Notes under the pieces: model-generated
What the model saw: the letters and a program-made list of their open reading frames with translations, nothing else
The model's database searches: none
Told to the model about the DNA's origin: nothing
Program-made: the position numbers and the translations under genes
Origin: a virus
Direction: 5' to 3' (one strand)
IMG/VR virus record: IMGVR_UViG_3300009320_000011
Span: 1 to 64,000 of that record
Length of the DNA stretch: 64,000 nt
Part shown: positions 3,841-53,994 of the stretch, piece by piece
How the letters are laid out: each line of letters opens with the position of its first letter
Position numbering within the stretch: the stretch's first letter is position 1

Positions 3841-4119
3841 ATGAAAAAAAATGTAGAGAACAAAACCCATAGTTTCAAAAAATCAAAAATTAACGGCACT
3901 AAAGTCATCGTTAAAGACAACTCAGACCAGGCAATCGATTCAGCAATATATAGTTTTAAGAAACTGGTAAAAGACAGCGGTAAATTAAATGAGTTACGAG
4001 ATAGACAAGAATATTCAAAACCATCTAAAAATCGTAGAGAAACAATACAATATGCTGTCAGAAGACAAAAAAGACTGACAGAATATGAAAAATATATCGA
4101 TTCTCTGTCATATAATTAA
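3841..4119 (+). CDS. rpsU: Phage-encoded ribosomal protein bS21 homologue
   Basis: The 92-residue basic protein matches the bS21 layout: a short beta segment (GTKVIVKDNSDQAIDSAI), then SFKKLVKDSGKLNELRDRQEY, then the KPSKNRRE turn and an Arg/Lys-rich helix. Viral bS21 genes are known from other phages. bS21 sits near the 3' end of 16S rRNA on the 30S subunit platform. In Bacteroidota, bS21 takes part in hiding the anti-Shine-Dalgarno sequence, so a phage version could change start-site choice on host ribosomes. Many genes here have strong AGGAG sites. The gene lies just upstream of the scaffold gene. Confidence 0.8.
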   Translation: MKKNVENKTHSFKKSKINGTKVIVKDNSDQAIDSAIYSFKKLVKDSGKLNELRDRQEYSKPSKNRRETIQYAVRRQKRLTEYEKYIDSLSYN

Positions 4120-4272: not shown

Positions 4273-5256
4273 ATGCCAAAGAAAAAACAATTATTAGACG
4301 AGGTTATTCTCGATGCTAAACTTGTCAGGGAAACAGCTCTTGAACAAGCCAGACTAGCACTTGAAGAAGCTTTTAAACCAAAGATTCAGTCGATGTTGTC
4401 TAAAAAATTACAACAAGAACAAGAAGACGAGGAAATCGAAGACGAAGAACTTCCAGTCGAAGATGAATTTCCAGTTGAAGATGAAATTGAAGATGAAGAA
4501 GAAGTAACTGAAGAAGAAGAAATCGAAGATGAAGAAGAAATTCCAGTTGAAGATGAAGAAGAAGAAACTGAAGATGAAATCGAAGATGAAGAAGAAGTAA
4601 CTGAAGAAGAAACAGAAATTGAAGATGAAATCGAAGATGAAGAAGAAATTCCAGTTGAAGATGAAGAAGACTTAGATTTAGAAGCCGTTATCAAAGAGCT
4701 TGAAGATGAATTAGATGAAGAAGAAGTTCCTCCAGTTGAAGATGAAGAAGAAGAAGTAACTGAAGAAGAAATTCCAATCGAGGATGAAGAAGAAGATGAA
4801 GAAATCGACATCGAAGAAATCATTAAAGCTTTGAAAGAAGAAGATGATGAAGAAGCAGAAGAAATGACTGAAGAAGATGCAGAAGAGGGAGTTGAAGAAT
4901 TAAAAACAGAACTCGAAGAAGCGTATAATGTAATTAATGAATTGAAAAATGAATTAAATGAAATCAATATGTTAAATGCTAAACTGTTGTACTCAAACAG
5001 ACTATTTAAGAAACACAATATGACTCAAAATCAGAAGATGAAAGTTATTGAAACTTTTGATAGAACGAATAGTATTCGTGAAATTAAACTTGTTTACGCA
5101 ACACTAGCAGAAACATTAAACAACACAACTAAAACAAGAAAAAACTTGAAAGAAAGTTTTGCATCTGATACCGTAAAATCAACGAAACCAACAAAAATCA
5201 TCAAAGATGAAGATTCGTTAGCATCAAGGTTCAGAGAATTAGCAAATCTTAAATAA
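4273..5256 (+). CDS. 22: Prohead scaffold protein, T4 gp22-like
   Basis: The protein has 327 residues. Residues 50-215 are an extremely acidic run of E, D, I, V and P with repeated EEIPVEDEEE-type units, followed by a predicted helical C-terminal part (residues 215-270) and a basic tail with DSLASRFRELA. The position between protease and capsid gene equals T4 gene 22, the major scaffolding core protein that is destroyed by gp21. The acidic repeat makes the DNA a gaa/gat-rich simple sequence. An ATG after GGGAG gives the start. Confidence rests on position plus composition, because scaffolds diverge quickly. Confidence 0.82.
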   Translation: MPKKKQLLDEVILDAKLVRETALEQARLALEEAFKPKIQSMLSKKLQQEQEDEEIEDEELPVEDEFPVEDEIEDEEEVTEEEEIEDEEEIPVEDEEEETEDEIEDEEEVTEEETEIEDEIEDEEEIPVEDEEDLDLEAVIKELEDELDEEEVPPVEDEEEEVTEEEIPIEDEEEDEEIDIEEIIKALKEEDDEEAEEMTEEDAEEGVEELKTELEEAYNVINELKNELNEINMLNAKLLYSNRLFKKHNMTQNQKMKVIETFDRTNSIREIKLVYATLAETLNNTTKTRKNLKESFASDTVKSTKPTKIIKDEDSLASRFRELANLK

Positions 5257-5268
5257 TAGGAGAAATAA

Positions 5269-6918
5269 ATGAGTTTACAGAAAATTATGGAATCAACTAA
5301 AGTTTACGACAAGAAACTTCGTGACGAAACTGAAGTGTTGGTTTCAAAATGGAAAAGAACTGGTCTCATGGATGGTCTCGAGAAAACGAAATACGAAAAA
5401 TACTTCGTAGCTCAATTACTCGAAAATCAAGCCAAGCAATTAGTCGTTGAATCATCTAGGACTGGAACAGCATCAAACTCAGAGGAATGGTCAGGAGTAG
5501 CTCTACCGTTGGTACGTAGAATTTTTAGCGAAATAGCAGCTAAAGATTTTGTTAGCGTTCAACCAATGAGCCTACCATCAGGACTAGTATTCTGGGTAGA
5601 CTTCAAATACGGAACTGGGCAACCAGGATTCACTACAGGATCTGGTAAAGATTCTGAAGCTGACTCTGTATTTGGTATAACAGGAACCATCGGATCTGAC
5701 GCAAGTCAAGGTCTTTATGGAGCCGGCAGATTTGGTTATTCAATCAATGAAGCTGATACAGCAAATCTTGTAACAGGATCAACACCATCATCAACAGAAG
5801 TTGCTACTGCATCTATTGCTGCAGCTGACTATAATTATGATACGTCATTCTCACAGTCATACGCAGGACAATTTGATAGTAGCGCAACTGCTGGTATGTT
5901 TAAGATAACAATGGCGTCGTCTTCAATGACTAATCCAGACTTTGAAGGTATTCGTGCATATAAAATTCGTGGACCTGGTATTTCAACATACTTCCCACAA
6001 TTTACAGTAGCCAATTCAAACAATTCACAGATATCGTTTATTATATCTGGGTCTCAATCATCGTTTAATGGTGGTGGTATTGCTGTAACATACCATAAAC
6101 AACCAACTGATATTACTCGTGGTGACTTTGAAGCTACATCTGATACGGACATCAATATTCCGGAAATCAACGTAGAAATGAAATCTGAACCTATCGTAGC
6201 TAAAACGAGAAAACTAAAAGCTATCTGGACTCCTGAATTCGCACAAGACTTAAATGCATATCACTCAATTGACGCTGAAGCTGAACTAACATCAATGTTA
6301 TCTGAGTACATCTCAATGGAAATTGATCTTGAGATTTTGGATATGTTGATCAAAAATGCAGCAACAACTGAACGTTGGTCAGCACAAATCGGTAGATATT
6401 ATGATAACGCAGCAAGTGCATTCGTTGATTATGCAACGGCTCAAGCACAAGCAGCAGCATTTAACCAAGGAACATGGTTCCAGACTCTGGGAACAAAAAT
6501 CCAGAAGGTATCTAATAAAATCCATCAAAAAACAATGCGTGGCGGAGCGAACTTCTTAGTTTGTTCACCTGAAGTAGCAACTGTTCTGGAATCAATCCCA
6601 GGATATTCAGTTGACACTGACGGCGATAAACCACAATTCGCGATGGGCGTACAGAAAATTGGTCAAATCAATAACAGGTTCCAAGTTTATAAAAATCCAT
6701 ATATGTTAGAAAATACAATTCTTCTAGGATATCGTGGATCACAATTCTTGGAAACAGGAGCTGTTTTTGCACCATATATTCCGTTGATTTTAACTCCATT
6801 AGTATATGATCCTAACAACTTTACTCCAAGACGTGGAGTTATGACACGTTATTCGAAGAAGTTGATTAGACCGGAATTCTACGGAAAGATACATGTAACT
6901 GATCTACCAAACGTGTAA
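5269..6918 (+). CDS. 23: Major capsid protein, T4 gp23-like
   Basis: 549 aa against 521 in T4. The N-terminal delta domain (residues 1-61) ends KQLVVE before SSRTGTASNSEEWSG, which fits removal by the prohead protease at a V/L-x-E site (T4 cleaves after residue 65). Conserved landmarks are LPLVRRIF, QPMSLPSG, the P-domain segment MKSEPIVAKTRKLKAIWTPE, ELTSMLSEYISMEIDLEILD and the C-terminal TPRRGVMTRYSKKLIRP. A strong AGGAGAAATAA precedes the start and a rho-independent terminator follows the stop, as expected for the most highly expressed late gene. Confidence 0.95.
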   Translation: MSLQKIMESTKVYDKKLRDETEVLVSKWKRTGLMDGLEKTKYEKYFVAQLLENQAKQLVVESSRTGTASNSEEWSGVALPLVRRIFSEIAAKDFVSVQPMSLPSGLVFWVDFKYGTGQPGFTTGSGKDSEADSVFGITGTIGSDASQGLYGAGRFGYSINEADTANLVTGSTPSSTEVATASIAAADYNYDTSFSQSYAGQFDSSATAGMFKITMASSSMTNPDFEGIRAYKIRGPGISTYFPQFTVANSNNSQISFIISGSQSSFNGGGIAVTYHKQPTDITRGDFEATSDTDINIPEINVEMKSEPIVAKTRKLKAIWTPEFAQDLNAYHSIDAEAELTSMLSEYISMEIDLEILDMLIKNAATTERWSAQIGRYYDNAASAFVDYATAQAQAAAFNQGTWFQTLGTKIQKVSNKIHQKTMRGGANFLVCSPEVATVLESIPGYSVDTDGDKPQFAMGVQKIGQINNRFQVYKNPYMLENTILLGYRGSQFLETGAVFAPYIPLILTPLVYDPNNFTPRRGVMTRYSKKLIRPEFYGKIHVTDLPNV

Positions 6919-6978: not shown

Positions 6979-7007
6979 TGCTCTATTGAAAATATAATGG
7001 TTATTTC

Positions 7008-7038
7008 TTGTATCTATTAATTATTTTTTGTATATTTA
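7008..7038 (+). promoter_or_regulatory. Bacteroidota-like promoter
   Basis: TTG at 7008-7010, 20-base spacer, TATATTTA at 7031-7038. It drives the homing endonuclease whose ATG is at 7071. Confidence 0.65.
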
Positions 7039-7070
7039 TATGTGAGTACACCAATAATTGGAGTGAAATT

Positions 7071-8846
7071 ATGAAAAATAAATGTAAAATTTGCGGAAAA
7101 GAAATATTAAAACATAGGATATATTGTTCAAATGCTTGTAAGTTTTCTGACGATGAATATAATAAAAGTAGGTCAATTAAAAAGGAAAATGATGGAAGTA
7201 ATGAAATGCGATGTACTATATGTGGATGGCAAACACTAGATATATATAATTATGGTGGACATTTAGCGACGCATTTAAGAAAAAAACATGATATACTTGA
7301 TAAAAATTACAATTTATATTATAACAAAATATCAGTACCGCTAAAGGATGTATTTAAGTGTCCATACTGTGATTGGAAAACAAATGATATAATTAATAAA
7401 TCTGGAGCATTTACAAAGCACTTAATTAATGAACATAAAAAAAATATATTTGATTATATAAAAGAATACCCCGACCACGATAAATTATTTGTTAAATATG
7501 TTAAAAAAACTAATTATGATGAGTTTATAGCTGATGATGCGCGGAATGGTATTAAGTGTGAAGTGTGTGGAAAATATTTTAAGAAAATATCAAATTCACA
7601 TCTAAAACACCATAACATGTCGCCGCAGGAATATAAAGATAAATATAATATAGTAAAAACTACATCAAACACAACTTCATTAATACAATCTACCAAAACT
7701 AAAAAACACAATGCGCGCATGATGAAGTATTATCAAGATAATAATATTCCAATGCCGTGGCATTCTAGTGAAGTATATACCAAAAAAGTACAAAGTAAAT
7801 TTGAAGATTATAAAACCAAACTTGGAGATGAATTTACTATATGTTTTGATTATAATACATATTGGCATGGGAGTGTATTTCAATTTATATGTGTGAAGTG
7901 TGGAAATAGTTTTGATAGCGGATATAGGTATCCACGATGTTATGTATGTAATCCACCGTCATCTGGAGTGAGTGATGAAGAGAAAGAACTTCAGAAATAT
8001 ATTCGAGATGATTTGAAAATAAATATAGAATGTAATAATAGAAAATTAGTTAAACGAACTGAAGTTGATATATATATACCAAGTATGAATATAGGAATAG
8101 AATATGATGGGCTATATTATCATTCAGAATTATCTGGTAAGAAGGACAAAAACTACCACATTGAAAAGACTTTCAAATTATCTAATTGTGGAGTTAAATT
8201 AATTCATATAACTTCCGATGAATGGCTAAATAAGCAAACCATAGTTAAAAATAGGATAAAACATATGTTAGGTGTAACTGATAGTAGTATACATGCTAGA
8301 TTGTGTGATATTAAAGAGATTGATTCAAAATTAAAAAATAATTTTTTGAATAATAATCATATACAGGGAGGTGATAATAGTAGTATTAAAATAGGAGCGT
8401 TTTATAATAATGAATTGGTTGCTGTGATGACTTTTGGTAGCTTGAGGCGAGCATTGGGTAGTGAAAAAAAAGACAACGAATATGAAATGGTTAGATTTTG
8501 TTTGTCTGATCATAAAATAACTGGCATTTTCGGAAGGCTTTTGGGGTATTTTGTAAATAATTATAATCCATTAAAAATAATAACTTATAGTGATATACGC
8601 TGGTCTCCAGATAAATTAAATAATGTTTACGTTAAAAATAATTTTAAGTTAATTTCTCAGACTCCTCCAAACTACTGGTATATGAGTGGTTATAAATCTA
8701 GATTACACCGATTTAATTTTACAAAGCACCGCATAGTTGAAAAACACGGAGGTGATCCAACTTTATCCGAGTGGCAAAATATGCAGTTAATGGGATACGA
8801 CCGAATCTGGGATTGCGGATCATATAAATATGAGTTTATAGTATAA
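7071..8846 (+). CDS. Free-standing homing endonuclease (zinc fingers + Vsr-like/EDxHD nuclease)
   Basis: The frame is open further upstream, but the ATG at 7071 after GGAG and downstream of a promoter is the credible start. The N-terminal half holds several cysteine/histidine modules (CKICGKEIL, CTICGWQTLD with HLATHLRKKH, CPYCDWKT, CEVCGKYF, then CVKCGNSF and CYVCNPP), probably zinc-binding DNA-recognition units. Residues around 340-400 carry the nuclease core EVDIYIPSMNIGIEYDGLYY and HSE, typical of Vsr-like homing endonucleases. The C-terminal part (LLGYFVNNYNPLKIITYSD) is shared with the minus-strand endonuclease at 20361..21827. It is inserted between the capsid gene and the phosphorylase gene and probably promotes its own spread. 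Confidence 0.82.
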   Translation: MKNKCKICGKEILKHRIYCSNACKFSDDEYNKSRSIKKENDGSNEMRCTICGWQTLDIYNYGGHLATHLRKKHDILDKNYNLYYNKISVPLKDVFKCPYCDWKTNDIINKSGAFTKHLINEHKKNIFDYIKEYPDHDKLFVKYVKKTNYDEFIADDARNGIKCEVCGKYFKKISNSHLKHHNMSPQEYKDKYNIVKTTSNTTSLIQSTKTKKHNARMMKYYQDNNIPMPWHSSEVYTKKVQSKFEDYKTKLGDEFTICFDYNTYWHGSVFQFICVKCGNSFDSGYRYPRCYVCNPPSSGVSDEEKELQKYIRDDLKINIECNNRKLVKRTEVDIYIPSMNIGIEYDGLYYHSELSGKKDKNYHIEKTFKLSNCGVKLIHITSDEWLNKQTIVKNRIKHMLGVTDSSIHARLCDIKEIDSKLKNNFLNNNHIQGGDNSSIKIGAFYNNELVAVMTFGSLRRALGSEKKDNEYEMVRFCLSDHKITGIFGRLLGYFVNNYNPLKIITYSDIRWSPDKLNNVYVKNNFKLISQTPPNYWYMSGYKSRLHRFNFTKHRIVEKHGGDPTLSEWQNMQLMGYDRIWDCGSYKYEFIV

Positions 8847-8899: not shown

Positions 8900-9706
8900 A
8901 TGCAAGACTATAAAATCACACACACGATAGATTTCTTATCTTACGGAATCACTGAAAAACCAACTATTGGCATCATAACTGGTACTGGTATGGGTGATAT
9001 CGTAAATCATCTAACCAAACCATCAGCAGTGGACTATCGAGAAATTCCAAATTTCGTAACATCAACTGTCGAGTCGCATCGTGGAAAACTAGTATTTGGA
9101 AAACTGGAGGATAAGAATGTAGTTGTTATGCAAGGCCGTTTCCATTATTACGAAGGATATTCAGCTGAAGAGATTACGTTTCCAGTTAGAGTGATGAAGA
9201 AATTAGGAGTAGAGCACTTGATAATAACTAACGCGGCTGGCTCGCTTAATCCTGAGTTTAAGAAGGGATCCATAATGTTAATTGATGATCACATAAATTT
9301 GATACCAGACAATCCACTGCGAGGCACGTTTCATGAACCACGATTTCCGGATATGTCTCAGCCATACGACAGAAAAACGAATCAAAAAATAGAGAATATA
9401 GGTTTGGATGAATTAATATCAGTGCATCGTGGAGTTTTCGTTGCAGTACCAGGACCAAATCTTGAAACAAGTGCTGAGTATAAATATCTTAGAATAATCG
9501 GAGCTGATGCAGTTGGAATGTCAACTGTCCCAGAAGTGATCGTTGCAAATCAGTGTGGAATTAAGTGTACAGCTTTTTCGATTTTAACAGACGAAGGATT
9601 CCACGAGGTATTAGAGCCAGTAAGTTTATCAGATGTAATTGAAGTTTCACGACAAGTTGAACCAAAACTGATAATTTTAATTGAAAAACTTGTAAAGTAT
9701 TTGTAG
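8900..9706 (+). CDS. Purine nucleoside phosphorylase
   Basis: Cleaves purine (deoxy)nucleosides with phosphate to base and (deoxy)ribose 1-phosphate. Family marks of the trimeric PNP-I class are the phosphate loop GIITGTGMG, the motif VESHRGKL, QGRFHYYEGYS, ITNAAGSLN, PGPNLETSAEYKYL and the purine-site segment VGMSTVPEVIVA. Its length (268 aa) is normal. The frame extends upstream to 8873, but that part overlaps the promoter, so the ATG at 8900 is chosen. An enzyme of nucleotide salvage inside the structural region, with its own promoter, looks like an acquired metabolic gene. It could recycle host purines, or supply precursors together with the ribonucleotide reductase. Confidence 0.9.
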   Translation: MQDYKITHTIDFLSYGITEKPTIGIITGTGMGDIVNHLTKPSAVDYREIPNFVTSTVESHRGKLVFGKLEDKNVVVMQGRFHYYEGYSAEEITFPVRVMKKLGVEHLIITNAAGSLNPEFKKGSIMLIDDHINLIPDNPLRGTFHEPRFPDMSQPYDRKTNQKIENIGLDELISVHRGVFVAVPGPNLETSAEYKYLRIIGADAVGMSTVPEVIVANQCGIKCTAFSILTDEGFHEVLEPVSLSDVIEVSRQVEPKLIILIEKLVKYL

Positions 9707-10359: not shown

Positions 10360-11508
10360 ATGGCAGTTAATATACCAATCTGGGACGGCAGTCCTGGAAT
10401 AATATCTGGTTCCACACCGTTTGGATTTTACGATGACGACTCACAGTTTCAAACTGATGGTCCTAAATTTGCTAAGTATTGTGCGAAAAGATTGGGCTAT
10501 CCAATCATGGACGTCGAGCTACAATCCGGATCACTATATACAGCATTTGAAGAAGCAATAACTGAATATAGTCACCAGGTTAATCAGTTTAATATACGTG
10601 AAAATTTATTAAGTTTACAAGGATCATCAACCGGCAGTAATTTAACTCAAAGAGTAATTACACCAAATCTTGGTATGATATCCACTATATCTGAACAGTA
10701 CGGGACAGAAGCTGGAACGGGTGGATCTGTGAAATATCATACTGGCTCAATCGCAGTATCTTCTAGTATACAACGATATGATTTAGATGTATTATATAAA
10801 GATCACTATCACTCGGGCGATGAAATTGAAATCAAAAAAGTATATCATGAAGCAAAACCAGCAATCGTTAGATATTTTGATCCATATGTGGGTTCCGGCT
10901 TAGGTAGTCAGAATTTATTAGACTCGTTTGGATGGGGAGCATACTCACCAGCGGTATCATTTCTTATGATGCCAATGTATGCTGATATTCTTAGAGTCCA
11001 AGCCATAGAATTCAACGATCAAATCCGAAAATCAGGATATAGCTTTGAATTGATTAATAATGAAATCCGAATATTCCCAATACCAACAACAGATTATAGA
11101 TTATATTTTGATTATATTGTCAAATCAGATAGGAGCGATCCGCTCAAATTAACCAACCAAAATTTAATATCAGATGTGTCAAATGCTAGTTACCAAAATA
11201 TGCAGTATACATTTATTAATTCTGTTGGCAAGCGTTGGATAAATAAATATGGTTTGGCAATTGCAAAGGAAATGCTTGGTTGGATTCGTAGTAAATATAA
11301 TACAGTACCAATACCCGATAATGAAGTAACATTGAATGGCGACGCGCTGATTACGTCAGCTGAAACTGATAAACAACATTTAATTGAGGAATTGCAAGCA
11401 ACATTAGAGGAATCAAGTAGAACAAAATTATTAGAAAAACGAAAAGATGAATCAGAATTCGTTCAGGAAGAAATGAATAAGATTCCTCTCCAAATTTACG
11501 TTGGGTAA
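10360..11508 (+). CDS. Neck / head completion protein, gp13-like
   Basis: 382 aa. The N-terminal third has the conserved-looking segment KRLGYPIMDVELQSGSLYTA followed by FEEAITEYSHQVNQFNIREN, seen in neck proteins of T4-like marine phages. The C-terminal part includes FELINNEIRIFPIPTTDYRLYF and a helical end. It is followed after two small genes by the gp14-like gene, as in T4 where 13 and 14 are adjacent. In T4 the neck seals the filled head and provides the tail attachment site. The exact gp13 assignment rests on position and general resemblance. Confidence 0.6.
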   Translation: MAVNIPIWDGSPGIISGSTPFGFYDDDSQFQTDGPKFAKYCAKRLGYPIMDVELQSGSLYTAFEEAITEYSHQVNQFNIRENLLSLQGSSTGSNLTQRVITPNLGMISTISEQYGTEAGTGGSVKYHTGSIAVSSSIQRYDLDVLYKDHYHSGDEIEIKKVYHEAKPAIVRYFDPYVGSGLGSQNLLDSFGWGAYSPAVSFLMMPMYADILRVQAIEFNDQIRKSGYSFELINNEIRIFPIPTTDYRLYFDYIVKSDRSDPLKLTNQNLISDVSNASYQNMQYTFINSVGKRWINKYGLAIAKEMLGWIRSKYNTVPIPDNEVTLNGDALITSAETDKQHLIEELQATLEESSRTKLLEKRKDESEFVQEEMNKIPLQIYVG

Positions 11509-14719: not shown

Positions 14720-16486
14720 GTGAGTAGTGAAAAAATTATTTCTGCTGGTGTATTTACCAGAGAAAATGATCAATCTTTTTTACCACAAGGAATAGGAGAA
14801 ATTGGAGCAGCAATAGTTGGTCCAACCGTAAAAGGTCGAGCATTGGTACCGACGTTGGTATCATCTTATGCTGAATACCAGGAATTGTTTGGTGATACAT
14901 TCGATTCGGGTAGTGACTCATATCAATACTTGACATCAATGTTAGCCGATAGTTATCTGAAATATGGTAATAATTTATTGGTAACAAAAATATTAGCTGG
15001 CAGTTATAGTGCAGCTGATAGTCAAATTCCAAAAACCGGTAGTCTTTGGACAGATGCAGAGAATGTAGCTGCATCAGCATCATTTACATTATATACACTG
15101 GGTGATGGAGCTATTTTGAATAGTACAAGCTCAATCGGCACAAATAACCTATTATCAAGTGGTTCAAAAGATAACTTCCAGTGGGAAGTATCAAACGTAA
15201 ATAGTACTAAAGGAACATTTACATTATTGATTCGTCGTGGTGATGATAATATAAAACGTAAGGTTATTCTTGAACAATGGAATAACTTGAACATGGATCC
15301 AAAATCATCCAATTATATTGTAAAAAGAATCGGAGATCAAGTATATACAATACGTGATTCTGGTACGACAACACCATTCTTACAATTAAGTGGATCATAC
15401 GAGAACAAATCAAAATATGTACGCGTATCAATTAATAGTACATACCAAACACCAGATTATCTTGATGAAAACGGGAACGTAAGAAAACCAGAATATAGTG
15501 GTTCACTACCAGGACCATCAAGTGGATCATTCGCAAACGGCTCAGACGGTAATGTAAAACATCCACAAAATTTCTATGAAAATATCGCAAACGCAAATAC
15601 ACAAGGATACGATCCTAATGTAGAAGGCAGCGGTAGTACAGCATATTTAGATGCTTTGAAAATTTTATCAAATCAACTAGAATACGACTTTAACTTACTA
15701 TTGTTACCGGGAATCATCGACAACCAATCAAACCATGAAGCAGTAGCAACTAAAGCAGTTGATGTATGTGAAGATCGTGGTGATTGCTTCTGTATACTTG
15801 ATCCATGTATTTATGCATCATCAATTACAGATGCAACTACTGAAGCGGGGACACGTGATACAAACTACTCGGCACACTACTGGCCGTGGGTAAAAATGCC
15901 AGATATTCAAACGGGCAAAAATGTGTGGGTACCAGCGTCAATCGCTGCAGCACGTGCATTTACATTCAATGATAAAATCGGTTATCCATGGTATGCACCA
16001 GCAGGTCTAAATCGTGGAGCATTAGATAATGTAATATCAGCAGAAAGAAAACTGACTAGAGGTAATTTAGATGATCTATATGATGCTAATGTTAATCCAG
16101 TAGCAACATTCCCAAGAGAAGGTGTAGTAATTTGGGGACAAAAAACACTCCAAAAGAAAGCATCGGCACTTGATCGAATTAATGTTCGTAGATTGTTAAT
16201 AGCAGCTAAGAAATTTGTTGCATCAAGTTCGAGATATTTAGTTTTCGACCAAAATACAACAGCATTAAGAAATAAATTCTTGAATATCTGTAATCCTTAT
16301 TTCGAGGACATACAGAGTAAACAAGGACTTTATGCATTTCGTTGTGTTATGGATGAAACAAATAATACATCTGATACTATTGATCGTAACGAATTACATG
16401 GAGCAATATATCTGCAACCTTCTAGAACAGCGGAATTTATTTTAATTGATTTCAACATTTTGCCGACTGGCGCTGTTTTCGCTTAA
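14720..16486 (+). CDS. 18: Tail sheath protein, T4 gp18-like
   Basis: 588 aa with a GTG start after AAAGGAG. The N-terminus (SAGVFTRENDQS, IGEIGAAIVGPTVKGRA) and C-terminal domain (NVRRLLIAAKKFVASSSRYL, then FDQNTTALRNKFLNIC and AEFILIDFNILPTGA) are those of contractile sheath proteins. It polymerises around the tube and contracts to drive the tube through the cell envelope. A strong terminator follows. Confidence 0.95.
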   Translation: MSSEKIISAGVFTRENDQSFLPQGIGEIGAAIVGPTVKGRALVPTLVSSYAEYQELFGDTFDSGSDSYQYLTSMLADSYLKYGNNLLVTKILAGSYSAADSQIPKTGSLWTDAENVAASASFTLYTLGDGAILNSTSSIGTNNLLSSGSKDNFQWEVSNVNSTKGTFTLLIRRGDDNIKRKVILEQWNNLNMDPKSSNYIVKRIGDQVYTIRDSGTTTPFLQLSGSYENKSKYVRVSINSTYQTPDYLDENGNVRKPEYSGSLPGPSSGSFANGSDGNVKHPQNFYENIANANTQGYDPNVEGSGSTAYLDALKILSNQLEYDFNLLLLPGIIDNQSNHEAVATKAVDVCEDRGDCFCILDPCIYASSITDATTEAGTRDTNYSAHYWPWVKMPDIQTGKNVWVPASIAAARAFTFNDKIGYPWYAPAGLNRGALDNVISAERKLTRGNLDDLYDANVNPVATFPREGVVIWGQKTLQKKASALDRINVRRLLIAAKKFVASSSRYLVFDQNTTALRNKFLNICNPYFEDIQSKQGLYAFRCVMDETNNTSDTIDRNELHGAIYLQPSRTAEFILIDFNILPTGAVFA

Positions 16487-20153: not shown

Positions 20154-20371
20154 CCGAAATCAAACAAAAAATTAGAGACATGATTGCGGAGGAAATCAAA
20201 AATTTCAAATCAATCAAAGAAGCAACCACTGAAAAAGTGGATGGAATTCTTGTCGTAACAAATTCAAACGGATCAGTTGAACTGCATTTACCACAAGGTA
20301 TGAAAGGCGTAGAGCTTAAGAAATGGTTAGCAAAACATCCAGACATAGATAAGAAGTGGTCTAAGAAATAG
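20150..20371 (+). CDS. Leader-type protein, 73 aa
   Basis: Starts MTEIKQKIRDMIAEEIKNFK and continues SIKEATTEK: a leader variant with two candidate sites (MIAE and SIKE). The cargo is small and beta-rich (GILVVTNSNGSVELHLPQG) with a helical end. Its 3' end overlaps by 11 bases the 3' end of the convergent homing endonuclease. Confidence 0.7.
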   Translation: MTEIKQKIRDMIAEEIKNFKSIKEATTEKVDGILVVTNSNGSVELHLPQGMKGVELKKWLAKHPDIDKKWSKK

Positions 20372-21827
20372 TCAATAAGAATTTATAGTTACCACAATCC
20401 CAGAATCTCTTATATCCATTATTATACATATTAGCGACTTCAGTTAGGAGAGGATCAAAATTCTCCAACCGGTCCTTTAATTTATGTTTCTGAAATACTT
20501 GTCGATTATATATATTTAAGGCATTCTTAAAATAATAGTAATTTGGTTTGGTAGCATTAATTAATTTGAATCCATTTTTGGTGTATAAATCACCGATACT
20601 AAAACATCTATCAGCATATGATAAGATGTTTTTTGGTGCGTAGTTTTTTATAAAATGGGATAACATTTTTGAGAATCCACCCGTAATAGTTGTGAACAAT
20701 TCAGATGAATATCTGGTTAGTTCCCAATCGTAGTTTTTATCAAATCTCGATTTATTAAAACAAATCATAGATACTAATATATCGTCATAATATAATCCAA
20801 TATTTATTGAGGTATTACAATTACCTTGCAGGTGAGTTCTATCTAAAAAATCTTTTTTATCTTTAGCGGATACTAGTTTGATGATACATTTTCTTGCATA
20901 TATTCTGGTATTCTTATTTAGTTTAGAAGATAATATAGACTTTACAATATCTTGTTTTAATATCCACTGGTGGGAGAATATATGTATTAACTGAATGCCC
21001 TTAAAAGCGCATTTTTTTGTTTTATTAATGTGGTATTTTTCATCTATAAATAGATTTGAATGCCAATATAATCCATCATGCTCTACTCCAATATTGTGAT
21101 CCGGAAGGAGTATATCTATTTCAAACCCATTTAATATTTTTCTATCATTTCGAATTATTGGAATATTAAAGTTGGATAAATATAATGCTATCTCATCTTC
21201 TGGTTTTGATTTATTTGAACTAGATGACTTAGAGCACATTCTACAATGTGGTATATATCCATCATCTAAACAAGCTTTTATTTTATAACCACATACGGCA
21301 CACTCAAAGTCATATTGCACTCTGGTTGAAACACCATTTTTTTCAAAGAAATCTTTATCAAATAATGGAGTGATATGTTTCCAGTTTAATACTTGATCAT
21401 ACTTTTTTAATCTTCTGGCCATAAAATTATTGTACCCACGACTGCCATATCTTTTTAATTTTGTTTCCATCATCTTTTTTGGGTTGCTGTAATTTAGATT
21501 ACCATATCGATCTAATTTTGTTTTATTTATCTTTGATATAATTTCATCAGAATGGAACGGAGAATCAACGCCATATCGCTCTATCATGGTCTGCTTGTAT
21601 TTATCTTTAACATCAGGATGGTTGGTATAATGCACGCCACCATACTTAGTATCTACTGTATTTTTCATTGAATTATTTTTTTTGTTTATTTCAATTGGTG
21701 ATGTGTTCGAACATTTTTTACTACAATATAATTTTGGTCTTTTTTTATTGATTTCAAATGTGTTACTGCAATCTGGATGACTACATAATCTAATTTCATA
21801 CAAATCATTGTTCTTTTTTCTTGGCAT
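20361..21827 (-). CDS. Free-standing homing endonuclease (Vsr-like/EDxHD), only minus-strand gene
   Basis: The start is taken at the complement of 21827 (MPRKKNNDLYEIRLCSHPDC); the open frame begins further upstream with TTG. The N-terminus has a CxxxC...C..C zinc module. It is followed by repeated units ending in RYG plus N/S (DTKYGGVHYTNHPD, MIERYGVDSPFHSDE, KLDRYGNLNYSNPKK, KLKRYGSRGYNN), probably DNA-contact repeats. A second zinc module is followed by the nuclease core GFEIDILLPDHNIGVEHDGL and YWHS, and by the same C-terminal extension as the protein at 7071. It sits between the leader island and the tail tube gene, convergent to the leader gene, as expected of an invading mobile gene. 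Confidence 0.85.
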   Translation of the reverse strand: MPRKKNNDLYEIRLCSHPDCSNTFEINKKRPKLYCSKKCSNTSPIEINKKNNSMKNTVDTKYGGVHYTNHPDVKDKYKQTMIERYGVDSPFHSDEIISKINKTKLDRYGNLNYSNPKKMMETKLKRYGSRGYNNFMARRLKKYDQVLNWKHITPLFDKDFFEKNGVSTRVQYDFECAVCGYKIKACLDDGYIPHCRMCSKSSSSNKSKPEDEIALYLSNFNIPIIRNDRKILNGFEIDILLPDHNIGVEHDGLYWHSNLFIDEKYHINKTKKCAFKGIQLIHIFSHQWILKQDIVKSILSSKLNKNTRIYARKCIIKLVSAKDKKDFLDRTHLQGNCNTSINIGLYYDDILVSMICFNKSRFDKNYDWELTRYSSELFTTITGGFSKMLSHFIKNYAPKNILSYADRCFSIGDLYTKNGFKLINATKPNYYYFKNALNIYNRQVFQKHKLKDRLENFDPLLTEVANMYNNGYKRFWDCGNYKFLLTIS

Positions 21828-21948: not shown

Positions 21949-22437
21949 ATGCCAGACTTGTTAGATCCACAAGAAATAATGTTCACAAGTTTTGAACCGA
22001 AAGTAGCTAATAGGTTCATTATGTACGTAGATGGAATACCAGCATATTTAATTAACGCAGCAGGCACGCCGAATCCATCATTTGGTGAAATTACACTTGA
22101 ACATATAAACGTAAAACGCAAATTAAAAGGAAAAGCTGTTTGGGCTGATATCACGATATCATTATACGATCCAATTGTACCATCAGCTGCTCAAGCGGTA
22201 ATGGAGTGGATTCGTCTATCTCATGAAGCAGTAACTGGCCGCGACGGCTACTCAGATTTCTATAAAAAGGATTTGACATTTAATGCACTTGGACCAGTGG
22301 GCGATAAAGTTGGTCAGTGGACATTAAAAGGAGCTTGGATCAAAGATGCTAAATTCGGTGATTACGATTGGGCAACTGAAGATGCTATAAAAGTTGAGGT
22401 ATCAATAGCATATGACTACGCAATATTAGATTACTGA
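21949..22437 (+). CDS. 19: Tail tube protein, T4 gp19-like
   Basis: 162 aa (T4 gp19 is 163 aa). It has the tube-protein pattern with KVANRFIMYVDGIPAYLINA, EITLEHINVKRKLKGKAVWA, LYDPIVPSAAQAVMEWIRLS, GQWTLKGAWIKDAKFGDYDW and the end VEVSIAYDYAILDY. Hexameric rings of it form the tube inside the sheath. It has a strong RBS and its own late-type promoter element, separated from the sheath gene by the leader island and an endonuclease. Confidence 0.95.
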   Translation: MPDLLDPQEIMFTSFEPKVANRFIMYVDGIPAYLINAAGTPNPSFGEITLEHINVKRKLKGKAVWADITISLYDPIVPSAAQAVMEWIRLSHEAVTGRDGYSDFYKKDLTFNALGPVGDKVGQWTLKGAWIKDAKFGDYDWATEDAIKVEVSIAYDYAILDY

Positions 22438-26322: not shown

Positions 26323-27141
26323 ATGACAAAAGTTACAGATCAAGAATTAAAAAAAATGGCCCTAGAAGGGCACACTAAAAAATCAAATTTTCCTACTGAA
26401 GTAATTGATTTACCAAGCAAGGGCTTGTTATATCCAGAAAATCATCCATTACGAGAAGGCAGAATCGAAATCAGATATATGACTGCAAAAGATGAAGATA
26501 TTCTAACAACTCAATCCCTAATTAAGAAGATGATTGTTATTGATAAACTATTGGAATCAGTTATAGTCACACCAGTTAACATGAATGATTTGCTTATTGG
26601 TGATAAAAATGCTATTATGATAGCAACTCGTATATTGGGATATGGTGCTAAATATAACGCGACAATATTATGTCCCAATTGTGGTTTCAAAAATAAAAAA
26701 ATTGTAGACCTAAATTCACTAGAACATAAACCAATTGATGAATCACTATATAAGAGCGGCAATGAATTTTCATTTGAATTACCACAATCAAAGGTAAAAA
26801 TTAAATTCAAATTATTAACACATCTTGATAATAAGCTGATTGACCGTGAGATTGAAAAAACAAAAATCAACTTGAAGAAATCTGGTGTCGAAGGAATTGA
26901 TTCTAGTCTAACAACCAGACTATCTAGTTCAATTACATTAGTTGATGGCAATGATGATCCAAAACACATTAAAGAATTCGTTGATACCATGTTATCAAGC
27001 GACTCAAGAGCGTTGAGATCATATATTTCAGAAGTATCACCTGACGTTGATATGGATATACCATTTGATTGCGACGATTGTGGTAACGAGGATATGGTTC
27101 GGTTAGTACCAGACGTTGAATTTTTTTGGCCTGGGGTCTGA
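26323..27141 (+). CDS. Tail/baseplate assembly protein, T4 gp26-like
   Basis: 272 aa. The central pattern VIDLPSKGLLYPENHPLREG, then RIEIRYMTAKDEDIL, is the hallmark of the T4 gp26 baseplate hub family. A zinc-ribbon-like pair CPNCGFKNK and CDDCGNED is present, with C-terminal VEFFWPGV. Its end overlaps the next frame at a run of seven T (27121-27127). The position directly before the tape measure is that of tail assembly chaperones in other phages. Confidence 0.8.
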   Translation: MTKVTDQELKKMALEGHTKKSNFPTEVIDLPSKGLLYPENHPLREGRIEIRYMTAKDEDILTTQSLIKKMIVIDKLLESVIVTPVNMNDLLIGDKNAIMIATRILGYGAKYNATILCPNCGFKNKKIVDLNSLEHKPIDESLYKSGNEFSFELPQSKVKIKFKLLTHLDNKLIDREIEKTKINLKKSGVEGIDSSLTTRLSSSITLVDGNDDPKHIKEFVDTMLSSDSRALRSYISEVSPDVDMDIPFDCDDCGNEDMVRLVPDVEFFWPGV

Positions 27142-27399: not shown

Positions 27400-27588
27400 A
27401 TGAAAAAAAGGAGACTTACCGAAGGAATACTAACATCAGTATTTAAGGTGTTATTTAAGGGAAAAGTAGATGTTATAGAAAAAGCATTAAGAGACGACCC
27501 AATATTAAAACAACAAGTAAAAAAAATACACAAAAATTTAGATGAATTAACAAAATATGTTGAAGATAATTTTGGTGAAAATTATTAA
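27400..27588 (+). CDS. Small helical protein, 62 aa (possible leader)
   Basis: MKKRRLTEGILTSVFKVLFK continues into a charged helical protein ending VEDNFGENY. RLTE would fit the (L/I)xE rule with cleavage after residue 8, so it may belong to the packaged set in short form. Its stop overlaps the tape measure start by one base. Confidence 0.65.
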   Translation: MKKRRLTEGILTSVFKVLFKGKVDVIEKALRDDPILKQQVKKIHKNLDELTKYVEDNFGENY

Positions 27589-30500
27589 TGGGAAATAATG
27601 ATAATCTAATAAAACAACAGATTCAAAAATTAAGTTTACAAGAGAAAGAGCTTAAAAGCAAGAGGAGTGCTCTGCAATTGGAAAAACAGACAGAATCTGT
27701 CAAAAAGAAAATATTAAAGTTAGATAAAGAAATTCAAGATGTTAAACAAAAAACAAATGAAATTCAAGAAAAATTTAATACTTCTGAAGCCGAGATTAAT
27801 CAATCTGAAGCCGAGATTAATCAAATATTATCACAAAATAGAGATAAAATAAAAGATATACTTAATTTGTCTAACGACTTGAGTGCTGATTTATCTAAAC
27901 AACTTGGGGTTAAACAATTAATCAATATTGTAGATCGGGTACAAACTGATAATGCTAGAAGAATCAATCAGGATAAGGCTAAGGAATATAATATAAGATT
28001 GCAAATAAATGATATAGGTGATGAAATATTAAATAATGAAAAAGAAATATTATCCGGCAATTCAGATGGGTTGGATATTTCTCAACAATTATTAGATGTC
28101 GAGTATATTAGGCGAGATATACTAGAATCATCTAAGGATCTGAGTGATGAGCAACAAAAAAAATTATTAAAAGAATTAAATGTAAGAGAGAAATTACTAG
28201 AGACTCAACAAGAAATAATTATACATGAAAAACGCAGGAATGAATTAATAGACGAGGGAGTGGGCAAGATAGAATCAGCATTTGAATCTATTGAGTCTGG
28301 TTTGAAATCTATTCCTGGCGGAGGTATGCTCTCTAAAGTTCTTGGAATAGAAACATTTGGAAAAGATTTTACCAAAACAATTAAGGATAATTTAGTAGCC
28401 GGAAGATCGGCATTTGAAGGACTTGGATCAACTGTGTCATCATCATTCAAGGTGATTGGAAGCGCACTTACATCAACACTTGGATCTGTATTGGGATTAG
28501 TTGCGATTTTTGCAATATTGTATAGTGTATTATCTGGAATCACAGAACAAGTAATGGAAACTTCCAAAGAGTTGGGAATATCTACTGGTCAAGCTAAGAA
28601 ACTGGTCGATAATTCAAAGGAATGGGTCGGGCGTCTGGGACATGGATTAGCGACATCAGAGGAAATATTAAAAGCTCAAGGCGCTATTGTTAAAGAATAT
28701 GGATCAACTAATAATATATCAGAAGAACTAACTGATAACATACTAACAATGGAACATGCATTCGGCGTCGCGGGGGAAACTACAGCCAAAGTATCAAAAT
28801 CATTGGAAGGAATGGGGCTTAGCAAGGAATCAATTGCAACATCTAATATATTAGCCGGAAATTTAGCGGAAGCAGCTGGTGTACCAATCGATGCTGTTAT
28901 GGAGGATGTTGCAAATAGTTCCGAAATGATACACAAGTTTTTACCAAAAATGGGTCCAGAAATATATAAGGCAGCAGTTGAAGCAAAACGTCTTGGTCTA
29001 ACATTGAGTGAAATTGGTAAAGTTGGTGAACAATTACTAGACGTACAATCAAATCTTGAAAAGGAAATGACAGCTCAAGTAATGTTGGGTAAACAAATCG
29101 ATTTTGATAAATCAAGACAATTATTTGCAAATAAAGAACCACTGAAAGCAATTGAAGTTTTAATGAAAGGTATTGGCGACATAAATGATCTTAATTATTA
29201 TAAACAACAAGCAATCACAGAAGCAACTGGATTGACTGTTGATCAAATCGCTGAATATCAAAGAAAACAAAAAGAGATTAATGAATTAAAAATAAAAGAT
29301 CCAATCGCACACCAAGCATATAAGAAAGCTATAAAGGATTTGGAAGATCTAAACAAATTGAAGAAACAATCAGTTGAAGAAGAAGCAGCATCAAATCTCG
29401 AAGCCAGGAGAATGGCTATTTTGTGGGATGAAATAAAGCAATCGTTGATAAAAGCATTGGCGCCAATAGCTGAAAGACTGCTCCCAATATTGAAGGCTAT
29501 AGCTTGGGTACTTAGCGGTATAGCAGAACAAGGTTGGATAATCCAGGGAATATTTATTACATTGGGAACAATATGGGCTGGAAAACTTCTATTAGGAACA
29601 ATAACTAAATTGAAAAAATTGGGAAGTTTAGCGAAAACAGTTTTTACTAAAATGATTTCGCAAAGAGCGGCAGCAACAGGAGGATCTGGTGGTTATAGTT
29701 CTTTATTTAATAAACAAGCAACACCGAAAACACCCACCGCAGGTACTGGTGGCAAACCATCCAAAATGATGCAAGGTTTATCAAAAATTGACTGGAAAAA
29801 AATGTTAGCCGGAGCAGCCGCGATGTTGATAGTAGCGGCAGCAGTTTGGGTAATGGCTAAAGCGATGCAAGAATTTAGTACCGGCGTTAAATGGTCGGGA
29901 GTAGCGAAGGGGTTAGTTTCTCTAGGAGCACTAGCAATTGTTGTTGCTGCATTAAGTTTTATATCTCAAAATATTATTCTTGGTGCTGTCGCCATGGTGA
30001 TAATGGCCGGTGGATTGTGGGTATTAGCAAAAGCAATGCAAGAATTTAGTACTGGCGTTGAATGGGATGGTATATGGAAAGGATTGACCGCGCTGGGCGC
30101 CTTTGCAATAGTTACAGCGGCCATGGCATTCGTGGCACCATTAATTTTAATTGGTGCAGCTGCTATAATAGTTATGTCTGCTGGGCTTTGGGTTTTTGCT
30201 ATAGCGTTACAAGCAATTGCTAGTGTTGATACTGATTCCATCTTTAATGGGCTCAAATCATTAGCCGATATAGGACCAGGGTTATTATTGGCGGCAATAG
30301 GCATCGGAGCTATATCTCTGGCAATGGCCGCGTTTGCTGGAGGATCTATATTGGGATTAATTGGGTCTGTATTTAGTGAAATTGGTATAGTTCGCACATT
30401 AACAAAACTAAGCAATTTGGCACCAGGATTAAATAGTGTCGCTGAATCATTAAACTCAATAAAAGCATCAATGGATAGTTTGGATGGAACCAAAGCCGAC

Positions 30501-30833
30501 ATCAGTATAAATATTCCCAGCAATATCGAAAAATGGATTGAGCAACGTGGACCAGAAACTACTAGAAGTACCAATAAAGCGGAAACAATAGGAACTGAAG
30601 GACAGAAAATTACACCACAAACACAAAATATACCAGTAACTGCTACAACAACTTCAGGAACAGATGGGTTGGATCGTATTGCATTATTGATTCAACAATT
30701 AATTGGATCTGTAAATCAACCACAAAAGATATATATTGGAAACAAAGTAATAAATGAAATAACAAGACAACAGCAATTATCAAGACACCAATCCGCTGGA
30801 TTTGATGGTAAGTATGGATATGCAATACAGTAA
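27588..30833 (+). CDS. Tail tape measure protein
   Basis: 1081 aa. Residues 1-230 are long charged coiled coils. A hydrophobic segment lies near residues 290-320 (LGLVAIFAILYSVLSGI). A globular alpha-helical part follows, and residues about 740-940 consist of three hydrophobic repeats of roughly 57 residues. The repeats contain AKAMQEFSTGVKW, AKAMQEFSTGVEW and a diverged third copy. The C-terminus has the SNIEKWIEQRGPETTR segment shared with the leader protein at 18260 and ends in KVINEITRQQQLSRHQS. Such proteins fix tail length and are ejected to help DNA entry. It is the longest gene of the tail module. Confidence 0.88.
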   Translation: MGNNDNLIKQQIQKLSLQEKELKSKRSALQLEKQTESVKKKILKLDKEIQDVKQKTNEIQEKFNTSEAEINQSEAEINQILSQNRDKIKDILNLSNDLSADLSKQLGVKQLINIVDRVQTDNARRINQDKAKEYNIRLQINDIGDEILNNEKEILSGNSDGLDISQQLLDVEYIRRDILESSKDLSDEQQKKLLKELNVREKLLETQQEIIIHEKRRNELIDEGVGKIESAFESIESGLKSIPGGGMLSKVLGIETFGKDFTKTIKDNLVAGRSAFEGLGSTVSSSFKVIGSALTSTLGSVLGLVAIFAILYSVLSGITEQVMETSKELGISTGQAKKLVDNSKEWVGRLGHGLATSEEILKAQGAIVKEYGSTNNISEELTDNILTMEHAFGVAGETTAKVSKSLEGMGLSKESIATSNILAGNLAEAAGVPIDAVMEDVANSSEMIHKFLPKMGPEIYKAAVEAKRLGLTLSEIGKVGEQLLDVQSNLEKEMTAQVMLGKQIDFDKSRQLFANKEPLKAIEVLMKGIGDINDLNYYKQQAITEATGLTVDQIAEYQRKQKEINELKIKDPIAHQAYKKAIKDLEDLNKLKKQSVEEEAASNLEARRMAILWDEIKQSLIKALAPIAERLLPILKAIAWVLSGIAEQGWIIQGIFITLGTIWAGKLLLGTITKLKKLGSLAKTVFTKMISQRAAATGGSGGYSSLFNKQATPKTPTAGTGGKPSKMMQGLSKIDWKKMLAGAAAMLIVAAAVWVMAKAMQEFSTGVKWSGVAKGLVSLGALAIVVAALSFISQNIILGAVAMVIMAGGLWVLAKAMQEFSTGVEWDGIWKGLTALGAFAIVTAAMAFVAPLILIGAAAIIVMSAGLWVFAIALQAIASVDTDSIFNGLKSLADIGPGLLLAAIGIGAISLAMAAFAGGSILGLIGSVFSEIGIVRTLTKLSNLAPGLNSVAESLNSIKASMDSLDGTKADISINIPSNIEKWIEQRGPETTRSTNKAETIGTEGQKITPQTQNIPVTATTTSGTDGLDRIALLIQQLIGSVNQPQKIYIGNKVINEITRQQQLSRHQSAGFDGKYGYAIQ
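30510..30566 (+). repeat. 57-bp segment shared with leader gene at 18323
   Basis: One mismatch to 18323..18379, read in the same frame. Confidence 0.93.
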
Positions 30834-35280: not shown

Positions 35281-35921
35281 CAGTCTATAGAAAAAGAATA
35301 TATTATCCCGAATCCCAAATGACGTTGGGACTAACTACTGATGGTGGCGAATATATGACATTAGATGATGTTGAATATATAGGAGCGTATCATAAATATA
35401 GTGATGGCGCAATATATACTGGTGGTTCATATACATCTAATTCAAAACCATTGATCAAATATAGATTAAATGAACCAGAATCGTCTTTGTTATATGATAA
35501 AATAGTCCAACATGCATTTCCTAAAAAATCACTATTAACACCACAGCAACCAATATTAACAGAAGATGATTATAAGATTGGCAGCATTTCGAGATATATA
35601 GCAGTGAGAATTAATGATTATACTGGTGATTCTGTAATTGAAATATCAGAAAAAGACTATACAAAATTTAGAGTAAAGAAAACATCAGCGTCGTTCATAT
35701 ACAATCTCATCGAAATCAAATGGAAATTAACTGGATCAATGAATGATATATATGATAAAGATGTTAGATTGGAAAGTGGCGTGTATGATACAAACAAACG
35801 GATCATAGAATCAGCGTCACAGAGAACTGGATTCTCATGTCTAAAAAATGTTATAACTGACTATTTGAGATATACCATATATGATCCAAATACACCAGTT
35901 CAGATTAAAAATATGTTTTGA
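35277..35921 (+). CDS. Baseplate-region structural protein, 214 aa
   Basis: The beta-rich protein overlaps the hub gene by 4 bases (ATGA). It has MTLDDVEYIGAYHKYSDGAI, YTGGSYTSNSKPLI and VRINDYTGDSVIEISEKDYT. Similar conserved virion proteins occur next to hub genes in marine T4-like phages. A structural role in the baseplate is inferred from position. Confidence 0.6.
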   Translation: MTVYRKRIYYPESQMTLGLTTDGGEYMTLDDVEYIGAYHKYSDGAIYTGGSYTSNSKPLIKYRLNEPESSLLYDKIVQHAFPKKSLLTPQQPILTEDDYKIGSISRYIAVRINDYTGDSVIEISEKDYTKFRVKKTSASFIYNLIEIKWKLTGSMNDIYDKDVRLESGVYDTNKRIIESASQRTGFSCLKNVITDYLRYTIYDPNTPVQIKNMF

Positions 35922-35947
35922 TAATTCAAGTTTTTTTTGTATATTTG
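35918..35947 (+). promoter_or_regulatory. Bacteroidota consensus promoter, nearly leaderless
   Basis: TTG at 35918-35920, 19-base spacer, TATATTTG at 35940-35947, an exact TAnnTTTG. The ATG of the polymerase-like gene starts only 4 bases downstream, so the mRNA probably begins at or next to the start codon. Confidence 0.75.
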
Positions 35948-35951
35948 TATA

Positions 35952-39333: not shown

Positions 39334-39336
39334 AGC

Positions 39337-39367
39337 TTGTACAACTGAAAAAAAAGTTGTATATTCG
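39337..39367 (+). promoter_or_regulatory. Bacteroidota-like promoter for SSB
   Basis: TTG at 39337-39339, 20-base spacer, TATATTCG at 39360-39367, followed by a 43-base leader with AAAAAAGGAG before the gp32-like gene. Confidence 0.75.
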
Positions 39368-39410
39368 TGTAAATTAAACATTAATTAAAACTAAAAAAGG
39401 AGAATTAAAA

Positions 39411-40232
39411 ATGCCAATTGACAAAAAAATTATTAAAGAGAAATTAGAAAGAATTTCACAATCAGCCAGACGTAGAAAAATCGTTTGGAAACCAGACGCA
39501 GGAGACCAATATGTACGTATTGTTCCTTATAAATCAAATCCGGGCTTCCCATTTATTGAACTATATTTCCATTATGGATTTATGGGTAAGAACATTTTAT
39601 CACCAACAACATTTGATGAACCAGACCCATTGGTAGAATATGCCAATAAACTGAGAGAATCAGGTGATAAAAAGGATTATGAAAATTCTAAAAAGTTATT
39701 TCCAAAAATGAGAGTTTATGCTCCGATCCTTGTTCGTGGTGAAGAAGGAGAAGGTGTTAAATTCTGGGGATTTAATAAAACCATTTATGAAGAATTCTTA
39801 GGAATATTAAGTGATCCTGTTTGGGGCGATATTACTGACCCAGCAGAAGGTAGAGATGTAAAAGTAACATTTATACCAGCAAAGAGTAAGGATACATATC
39901 CAAAAACTACTATTGTGGTACAACCAAATATTACACCAATTAGTACAGATACGGCGATCATATCTGAAGTGAAGAATCAAGCACCAATATCTGATGCTTA
40001 TACAACACCAACATATGAGGAAATGGTTGATTTGTTAAATGAATATTTGGAGGTTACACCTGAATCAGATGAAGAAGAAGAAGACAAACCGAAAGAGCCA
40101 ACAGAAAAAGGTTATGATGATCTACCATTCGATAGCAAAGAAGTTCCAGAAAAAAAGGAATCAACCAAGAATGTTAGAGGCATCGATAAACTAAAAAGCG
40201 AGTTGGATAACTTATTCCCATCAGAAGAATAA
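39411..40232 (+). CDS. 32: Single-stranded DNA-binding protein, T4 gp32-like
   Basis: 273 aa. The basic N-terminus is followed by the OB-fold region DQYVRIVPYKSNPGFPFIEL, YFHYGFMGKNILSPTTFDEP and FPKMRVYAPILVRGEE. An acidic, disordered linker (ESDEEEEDKPKEP) ends in a conserved acidic tail (LDNLFPSEE) for partner binding. Classical gp32 layout, although the zinc module of T4 gp32 is not apparent. It coats ssDNA for the replisome and for UvsX, which is encoded next. It has its own promoter and strong RBS. Confidence 0.88.
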   Translation: MPIDKKIIKEKLERISQSARRRKIVWKPDAGDQYVRIVPYKSNPGFPFIELYFHYGFMGKNILSPTTFDEPDPLVEYANKLRESGDKKDYENSKKLFPKMRVYAPILVRGEEGEGVKFWGFNKTIYEEFLGILSDPVWGDITDPAEGRDVKVTFIPAKSKDTYPKTTIVVQPNITPISTDTAIISEVKNQAPISDAYTTPTYEEMVDLLNEYLEVTPESDEEEEDKPKEPTEKGYDDLPFDSKEVPEKKESTKNVRGIDKLKSELDNLFPSEE

Positions 40233-45070: not shown

Positions 45071-45120
45071 AAAATTTATTTTCGTGATATATATAGTATA
45101 TTAAAGATGGGCACAGATTT

Positions 45121-46931: not shown

Positions 46932-46956
46932 ATATTTGATATTTTTACTATTGCTC

Positions 46957-46975
46957 TATACTTATACTAAAGGAA
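46957..46975 (+). promoter_or_regulatory. Late-type promoter element before endonuclease
   Basis: TATACTTATACTAAAGGAA, same type as the elements at 16604 and 22499, followed by an RBS (AGGAG) and the GTG of the endonuclease. Confidence 0.45.
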
Positions 46976-46992
46976 CATAAATAGGAGCAATA

Positions 46993-53955: not shown

Positions 53956-53958
53956 AGC

Positions 53959-53989
53959 TTGTAGCTGTCCCATAATTTTTGTATATTTA
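53959..53989 (+). promoter_or_regulatory. Bacteroidota-like promoter, nearly leaderless
   Basis: TTG at 53959-53961, 20-base spacer, TATATTTA at 53982-53989, ATG 5 bases later at 53995. Confidence 0.7.
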
Positions 53990-53994
53990 TATAA

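Follow-up and report, generated by a model that had tools for sequence, protein, structure and literature searches.

bS21 is the commonest ribosomal protein encoded by viruses. In Bacteroidota, ribosomes normally ignore Shine-Dalgarno (SD) sequences, and bS21 sits over the anti-SD. Freshwater Bacteroidetes jumbo phages have been described in which a bS21 gene is located in the capsid/protease/major capsid protein (MCP) region of myovirus genomes (Chen et al. 2022, PMC9723584), an arrangement like the one analyzed here. In those phages, bS21 is expressed together with the structural genes, and the proposal was made that it directs ribosomes toward late phage mRNAs. The same study places the N-terminal helix of bS21 over the anti-SD at the mRNA-binding site and infers that the phage protein continues to block the anti-SD. 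The phage studied here is represented by a 64-kb stretch of DNA (hereafter, the window) out of a 75,151-base IMG/VR virus record. Unlike in those phages, its bS21 gene lies on the MCP strand rather than on the opposite strand, and its bS21 is N-terminally extended and carries Arg54, whereas 61 of 61 phage bS21 proteins in the published set have an aromatic residue at position 54. Its late genes are SD-led.

A second precedent is the autoregulation of rpsU in Flavobacterium johnsoniae (McNutt et al. 2023, PMC9976891), which resembles the system proposed below in that SD reading depends on the bS21 state of the ribosome. Loss of the bS21 contact, whether through Y54A, deletion of the C terminus, or depletion, results in more translation of strong-SD reporters, and rpsU, practically the sole SD gene of this organism, is read by bS21-free ribosomes (PMC9976891). 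The two systems differ in which genes bear the SD. In F. johnsoniae it is rpsU that has one, unlike the other genes, whereas the window phage has SDs on its late genes and none on its bS21 gene, such that an SD-less phage bS21 gene among SD-led genes is the mirror image of the host arrangement.

The T4-like pelagiphage HTVC008M (Mizuno et al. 2019, PMC6375957) likewise encodes bS21, although its protein has no N-terminal extension and SDs are present on about half of its genes, late or not. So far, incorporation into ribosomes has been demonstrated only for this pelagiphage protein, in E. coli, and bS21 is loosely bound to the ribosome and exchangeable (PMC6375957). Microcystis phage Mel-JY01 (PP395634) has an MCP 61% identical to that of the window phage, bS21 in the same place, late SDs, and Bacteroidota-type promoters, but differs in having an SD on the bS21 gene, weak SDs kept on replication genes, and a cyanobacterium as its listed host. 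Flavobacterium phage immuto (NC_055915) shares a 52% identical MCP, a similar head gene order, and Bacteroidota promoters, but has no bS21 at that place and an SD on no gene class.

The idea that a phage bS21 may redirect ribosomes has already been published (PMC6375957; PMC9723584, in which it is tied to late genes) and is echoed elsewhere (PMC9976891). A search of an open-access library found no account of late-gene SDs in such phages, of an SD-less phage bS21 gene, or of the N-terminal extension of the protein.

A bS21 gene among the head genes of a T4-like myovirus

The open reading frame at 3841–4119 of the window (+ strand) encodes a 92-amino-acid bS21. It matched PF01165 in a profile search with 35.1 bits (cut-off 27) and corresponds to PHROG 21469 ('ribosomal protein S21'). 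An AlphaFold2 model reproduces the three bS21 helices (residues 29–46, 48–54, and 61–91) with high pLDDT, and the N terminus of the model is unordered and of low confidence. The gene is co-oriented with the head genes and is flanked by the protease side of the module and by the scaffold and MCP genes. These findings identify the product as a true bS21 and uphold the original prediction of a bS21-like gene in the head module. A sequence search of IMG/VR with this bS21 did not find close relatives, and the clade was therefore reached through the MCP.

Gene starts were called with a simple caller, and the contig is incomplete, with much of the early region probably missing. The T4-like myovirus markers were all found, namely the gp23-type MCP, sheath, tube, gp32, UvsX, and a T4-type clamp loader, and the phage also encodes a hub, a tape measure protein, and a DnaB-like helicase.

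Several further features of the gene map were observed. The DNA polymerase gene (49621–52362) is interrupted by one in-frame TAG (51496–51498), and its two halves match successive stretches of PHROG 262. General recoding of TAG is unlikely because this codon terminates 12 of the 79 genes, and we regard the split as either natural or an error. The large subunit of ribonucleotide reductase (RNR) is encoded in three pieces (43868–49255) with endonuclease-like genes (45121 and 46993) in between, an arrangement that suggests introns or homing insertions. Homing/HNH endonuclease genes are also present amid the structural genes, at 7071–8846 and 20361–21827 (−), one of them immediately 3′ of the MCP gene. 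The head module further includes a purine nucleoside phosphorylase (PNP) gene of the Bacteroidota type (8900–9706).

Promoters and the probable host

Promoters were scored with a matrix (TTG-N20-TAnnTTTG) derived from two relatives that have clear TTTG-N19/20-TAnnTTTG promoters, G005 (10 observed versus 0.8 expected) and Mel-JY01 (20 observed versus 1.2 expected). The window contig contains eight sites scoring at least 14, all on the + strand and ahead of genes, whereas 60 third-order simulations yielded a mean of 0.5 sites and a maximum of 3. Among the control genomes, T4, HTVC008M, and S-PM2 were not enriched, whereas the Bacteroidota-infecting phages crAss001 and immuto were. The promoters had initially been described as fitting TAnnTTTG. 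This description holds for the excess of matrix sites but not for the exact motif, which ends only the site at 35916, the remainder being near variants such as TATATTTA and TATATTCG. A cruder count of TAnnTTTG in the intergenic DNA of the window showed no enrichment (3 versus 2.9).

The exact site (TTTG-N19-TATATTTG; 35916–35948, +) precedes a DNA polymerase-like gene with a leader of only a few nucleotides, which leaves no room for an SD. Other Bacteroidota-type sites lie upstream of gp32 (39336–39368, +), upstream of an HNH gene (a variant at 7007–7039, +), and before a methyltransferase-like gene with a 4-nt leader (variant TATATTTA at 53958–53990, +). In the related record L028 (IMGVR_UViG_3300033182_000581), many Bacteroidota-type promoters are located 2–7 nt upstream of the start codon, and the resulting mRNAs would thus be almost leaderless.

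The nearest proteins to the PNP of the window are from Bacteroidota, the first match being to a Flavobacteriales genome (57%). Together with the eight promoter sites (versus 0.5 simulated), this finding makes a Bacteroidota host, as was originally proposed, the most likely one for this metagenomic contig. A host outside Bacteroidota, considered because of the match to a Microcystis phage, was rejected because Mel-JY01 itself has Bacteroidota-type promoters. About 20 canonical promoters of this kind are present in Mel-JY01 (L002 and L085–L087; PP395634), whose true host may be a member of the Bacteroidota within the cyanobacterial culture.

SD sites concentrate on late genes and are absent from the bS21 gene

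SD strength was expressed as the energy (kcal/mol) of the duplex that the 16S tail can form with the last 18 nt upstream of each start codon, and mock windows were taken farther upstream. All genes named in this section are on the + strand. In the head module, the prohead protease gene (1950–2579; PHROG 207) has the SD AAGGAG (−8.2), the acidic scaffold-like gene in the bS21–MCP interval (4273–5256; assigned by position and homologues) has GGGAG (−7.3), the gp23-like MCP gene (5269–6918) has AGGAG (−7.3), and the head-tail adaptor gene of the neck (10360–11508; PHROG 211) has TGGAG (−5.9). Among the tail genes, the sheath gene with its GTG start (14720–16486; PHROG 23) is preceded by AAAAAAGGAG, the tube gene (21949–22437; PHROG 4542) by AAGGAG (−8.9), the gp26-like baseplate hub gene (26323–27141; PHROG 150) by AAGGAG (−8.4), and the tape measure gene (27588–30833; PHROG 4372) by the SD-like GGTGA (−7.4). 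The gene for the gp32-like single-strand DNA-binding protein (39411–40232), which has the promoter at 39336 upstream, carries AAGGAG (−8.9). AGGAG-type ribosome-binding sites on the protease, capsid, sheath, tube, gp26-like, and gp32 genes had been noted from the sequence, and this list proved correct. The underlying observation, a phage bS21 gene accompanied by strong SD sites, is confirmed.

The pattern goes beyond that observation, in that replication genes and the bS21 gene are without SDs. Late genes of the window average −6.7 versus −2.3 for mock windows, whereas replication genes average −1.7 (n = 17) versus −2.9, and late SDs are stronger than replication SDs (p = 1e-4). The replication and nucleotide module (35937–62902, +; polymerases, UvsX, helicase, RNR, clamp, and clamp loader) is mostly free of SDs, with gp32 and the first NrdA piece as SD-bearing exceptions in this part. 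By position, SDs are present on 57% of the genes before 35 kb versus 19% of those at 35–64 kb. The leader of the bS21 gene itself, ataagttatATG, revealed no SD in the duplex energy check.

bS21 and SD-led late genes occur together among relatives

Eighty IMG/VR loci were collected through the MCP, with bS21 mostly at the same spot, and three more scans resulted in 147 dereplicated loci whose bS21 state is known. In the first locus set, the mean late SD was −4.5 with bS21 versus −0.5 without it (Mann-Whitney U = 0, P = 4e-9). Across the 147 loci, late genes are SD-led in 77 of the 78 that have bS21, the exception being L021. The 69 loci lacking bS21 comprise 53 clearly without SD-led late genes, 9 that are intermediate, and 7 with such genes, and the MCP gene has its own SD in 73 of 77 bS21-bearing versus 8 of 69 bS21-lacking loci. 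Late SDs exceed replication SDs in all 13 of the 13 long bS21-bearing contigs, that of the window among them (Wilcoxon 2.4e-4), and the pooled means are −4.57 (n = 191) versus −1.31 (n = 79) kcal/mol (p = 1e-12). Phage bS21 and SD-led late genes, first seen side by side in the window, are thus tightly linked across the relatives. SDs are found in neither gene class of four bS21-lacking contigs, which include the Flavobacterium isolate immuto, and none was seen over a 140-kb stretch of L306, a bS21-lacking record with Bacteroidota promoters. The Bacteroidota phages crAss001 and phi14:2, which have no bS21, fall below mock overall.

The signal has the properties of genuine SDs in position and in letter order. 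GGAG/AGGA/GAGG form a sharp peak about 9–13 nt upstream of the start, and do so only in late genes of bS21-bearing phages. AGGAG is present in 36 of 191 late leaders versus 1 for GAAGG and 6 for GGAAG, which have the same composition, and mere purine richness was rejected as an explanation because these same-letter permutations are far rarer. A reversed anti-SD decoy was uninformative because CCUCC is identical backwards, and a scrambled decoy retained part of the signal. The phage bS21 gene averages +0.50 versus −5.10 kcal/mol for its neighbors (75 loci, p = 8e-14), and an SD on this gene occurs only in the Mel-JY01 subclade.

Because the loci are related, and the MCP tree contains only 3–5 independent bS21 changes, the association might reflect shared ancestry, with a few lineages having by chance both traits or neither and no causal link between them. 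Concordance between SD state and bS21 is about 2.6 of 3 for the supported pairs, which is not significant by a sign test, yet none is clearly opposed and all supported changes are concordant or neutral. Moreover, the restriction of SDs to late genes and the lack of one on a bS21 gene within an SD-rich cluster require a reason, and we consider shared ancestry a distinctly improbable explanation.

The association has exceptions in both directions. L021 (IMGVR_UViG_3300009537_000008) is the sole clade member with bS21 and without late SDs, and bS21 without SD use is seen in two huge phages as well, LR756508 and LR745206. Conversely, a subclade comprising L479, L485, and L496 has SDs on some late genes, with no bS21 found and no Bacteroidota promoters. 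A search for bS21 elsewhere in the records of this subclade found none, and the hosts of these phages may differ from those of the other relatives. In immuto, gp069 was rejected as a hidden bS21 because it gave no profile match.

Residue 54 and the N-terminal extension

A comparison with host bS21 at the anti-SD contact had been suggested along with the original prediction. Aligned without gaps on a KPS/RR anchor, the window protein has Arg at the position of F. johnsoniae Tyr54, and thus lacks the aromatic residue of a Bacteroidia-type occluding bS21. Among hosts, this residue is Tyr in 38 of 40 Bacteroidia and Arg in 30 of 30 Rhodothermia/Balneolia genomes. The phage clade has Arg in 35 proteins, Tyr in 32, Phe in 9, Asn in 2, and Lys in 1. 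Residue 54 was rejected as the switch itself because late SDs are equally strong whether or not position 54 is aromatic (mean −4.49 for Tyr/Phe54 versus −4.65 for Arg/Lys/Asn54 phages), and in phages it may simply track host class.

Judged from the protein sequence, the host of the window phage may belong to the Rhodothermia/Balneolia, themselves Arg54 bearers, whose bS21 profile scores slightly higher than that of Bacteroidia (50.6 versus 47.5 bits). The late SDs could then merely mark the most highly expressed genes in a partly SD-using Arg54 host (e.g., Balneolales), with bS21 as no more than a marker of the host group that leaves the anti-SD as it is. Such an account draws on the profile fit and on Arg54, and also on T4 and HTVC008M, in which late SDs are likewise somewhat stronger than replication-gene SDs. 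However, two Balneolaceae genomes do not exceed mock in SD use, as in Bacteroidia, although their rpsU genes have strong SDs. Furthermore, the replication genes of the window phage do not exceed mock, whereas T4 has SDs on 61% of all genes, and the late-only pattern is equal in Tyr54-type phages, some of which (G004) have Bacteroidota promoters. We judge this account to be unlikely.

The N-terminal extension of the window bS21 measures about 18–20 amino acids, and host bS21 proteins are without such an extension. Its length in the clade is 10–29 residues, with (I/V)PG frequent and PG present in 50 of 81 proteins; that of the window has no PG but retains the conserved Gly19. The extension is present in every SD-using clade member. 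It is missing from the bS21 proteins of HTVC008M, LR745206, and LR756508 and is shortest (8 residues) in L021, whose bS21 score is also the most Bacteroidia-like; L021, LR745206, and LR756508 are the SD-less phages with bS21. Given the placement of the N-terminal helix over the anti-SD (PMC9723584), the extension could act on the SD helix.

A candidate late translation switch

We propose that the phage bS21 serves as a late translation switch that favors SD-led late phage mRNAs, a proposal to which we assign about even chances. More tentatively, and at slightly under even chances, we suggest that this phage clade makes an SD-ignoring host read SDs, with an extended bS21 made from an SD-less gene remodeling the 30S platform late. 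Early transcripts, those for replication, and that of bS21, all led without an SD, would be translated by unmodified host ribosomes that, judging from Bacteroidota biology, would not use SDs. The phage bS21 would subsequently replace host bS21 in 30S subunits and would either leave the 16S 3′ tail free for mRNA or, through its extension, support the SD/anti-SD helix. The late structural mRNAs, which are mostly SD-led, would then outcompete host mRNAs.

Some observations count against such a switch. These include the small number of independent bS21 changes (3–5), the SD on the bS21 gene of the Mel-JY01 subclade, the presence of bS21 without SD use (L021, LR756508, and LR745206), and partial SDs without bS21 (L479, L485, and L496). 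In addition, late SDs are just as strong in phages with Tyr54-type bS21 proteins, although such proteins are expected to keep hold of the anti-SD. The apparent ability of these Tyr54-type proteins to hold the anti-SD would suit a different explanation, in which SD reading is the work of bS21-free host ribosomes that accumulate late, while the phage bS21 has some other role, e.g., keeping the remaining ribosomes active or countering host bS21 autoregulation. F. johnsoniae ribosomes without bS21 indeed gain SD use (PMC9976891), but reading by bS21-free ribosomes leaves unexplained both the clade-wide co-occurrence of bS21 with late SDs and the way in which the extension tracks SD use, and we regard it as improbable.

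The near-constant pairing of bS21 and SDs among the relatives suggests a retuning of the ribosome by the virus, and the clade data question the published view (PMC9723584) that such phage bS21 proteins simply keep the anti-SD blocked. The presence of SDs on late genes and their absence from replication and bS21 genes constitute a built-in readout in hosts known or likely to ignore SDs, by which the idea of a phage-specialized ribosome becomes a simple reporter experiment. If the proposed switch is true, it would represent a virus-built specialized ribosome that favors the SD-led late genes of the phage.
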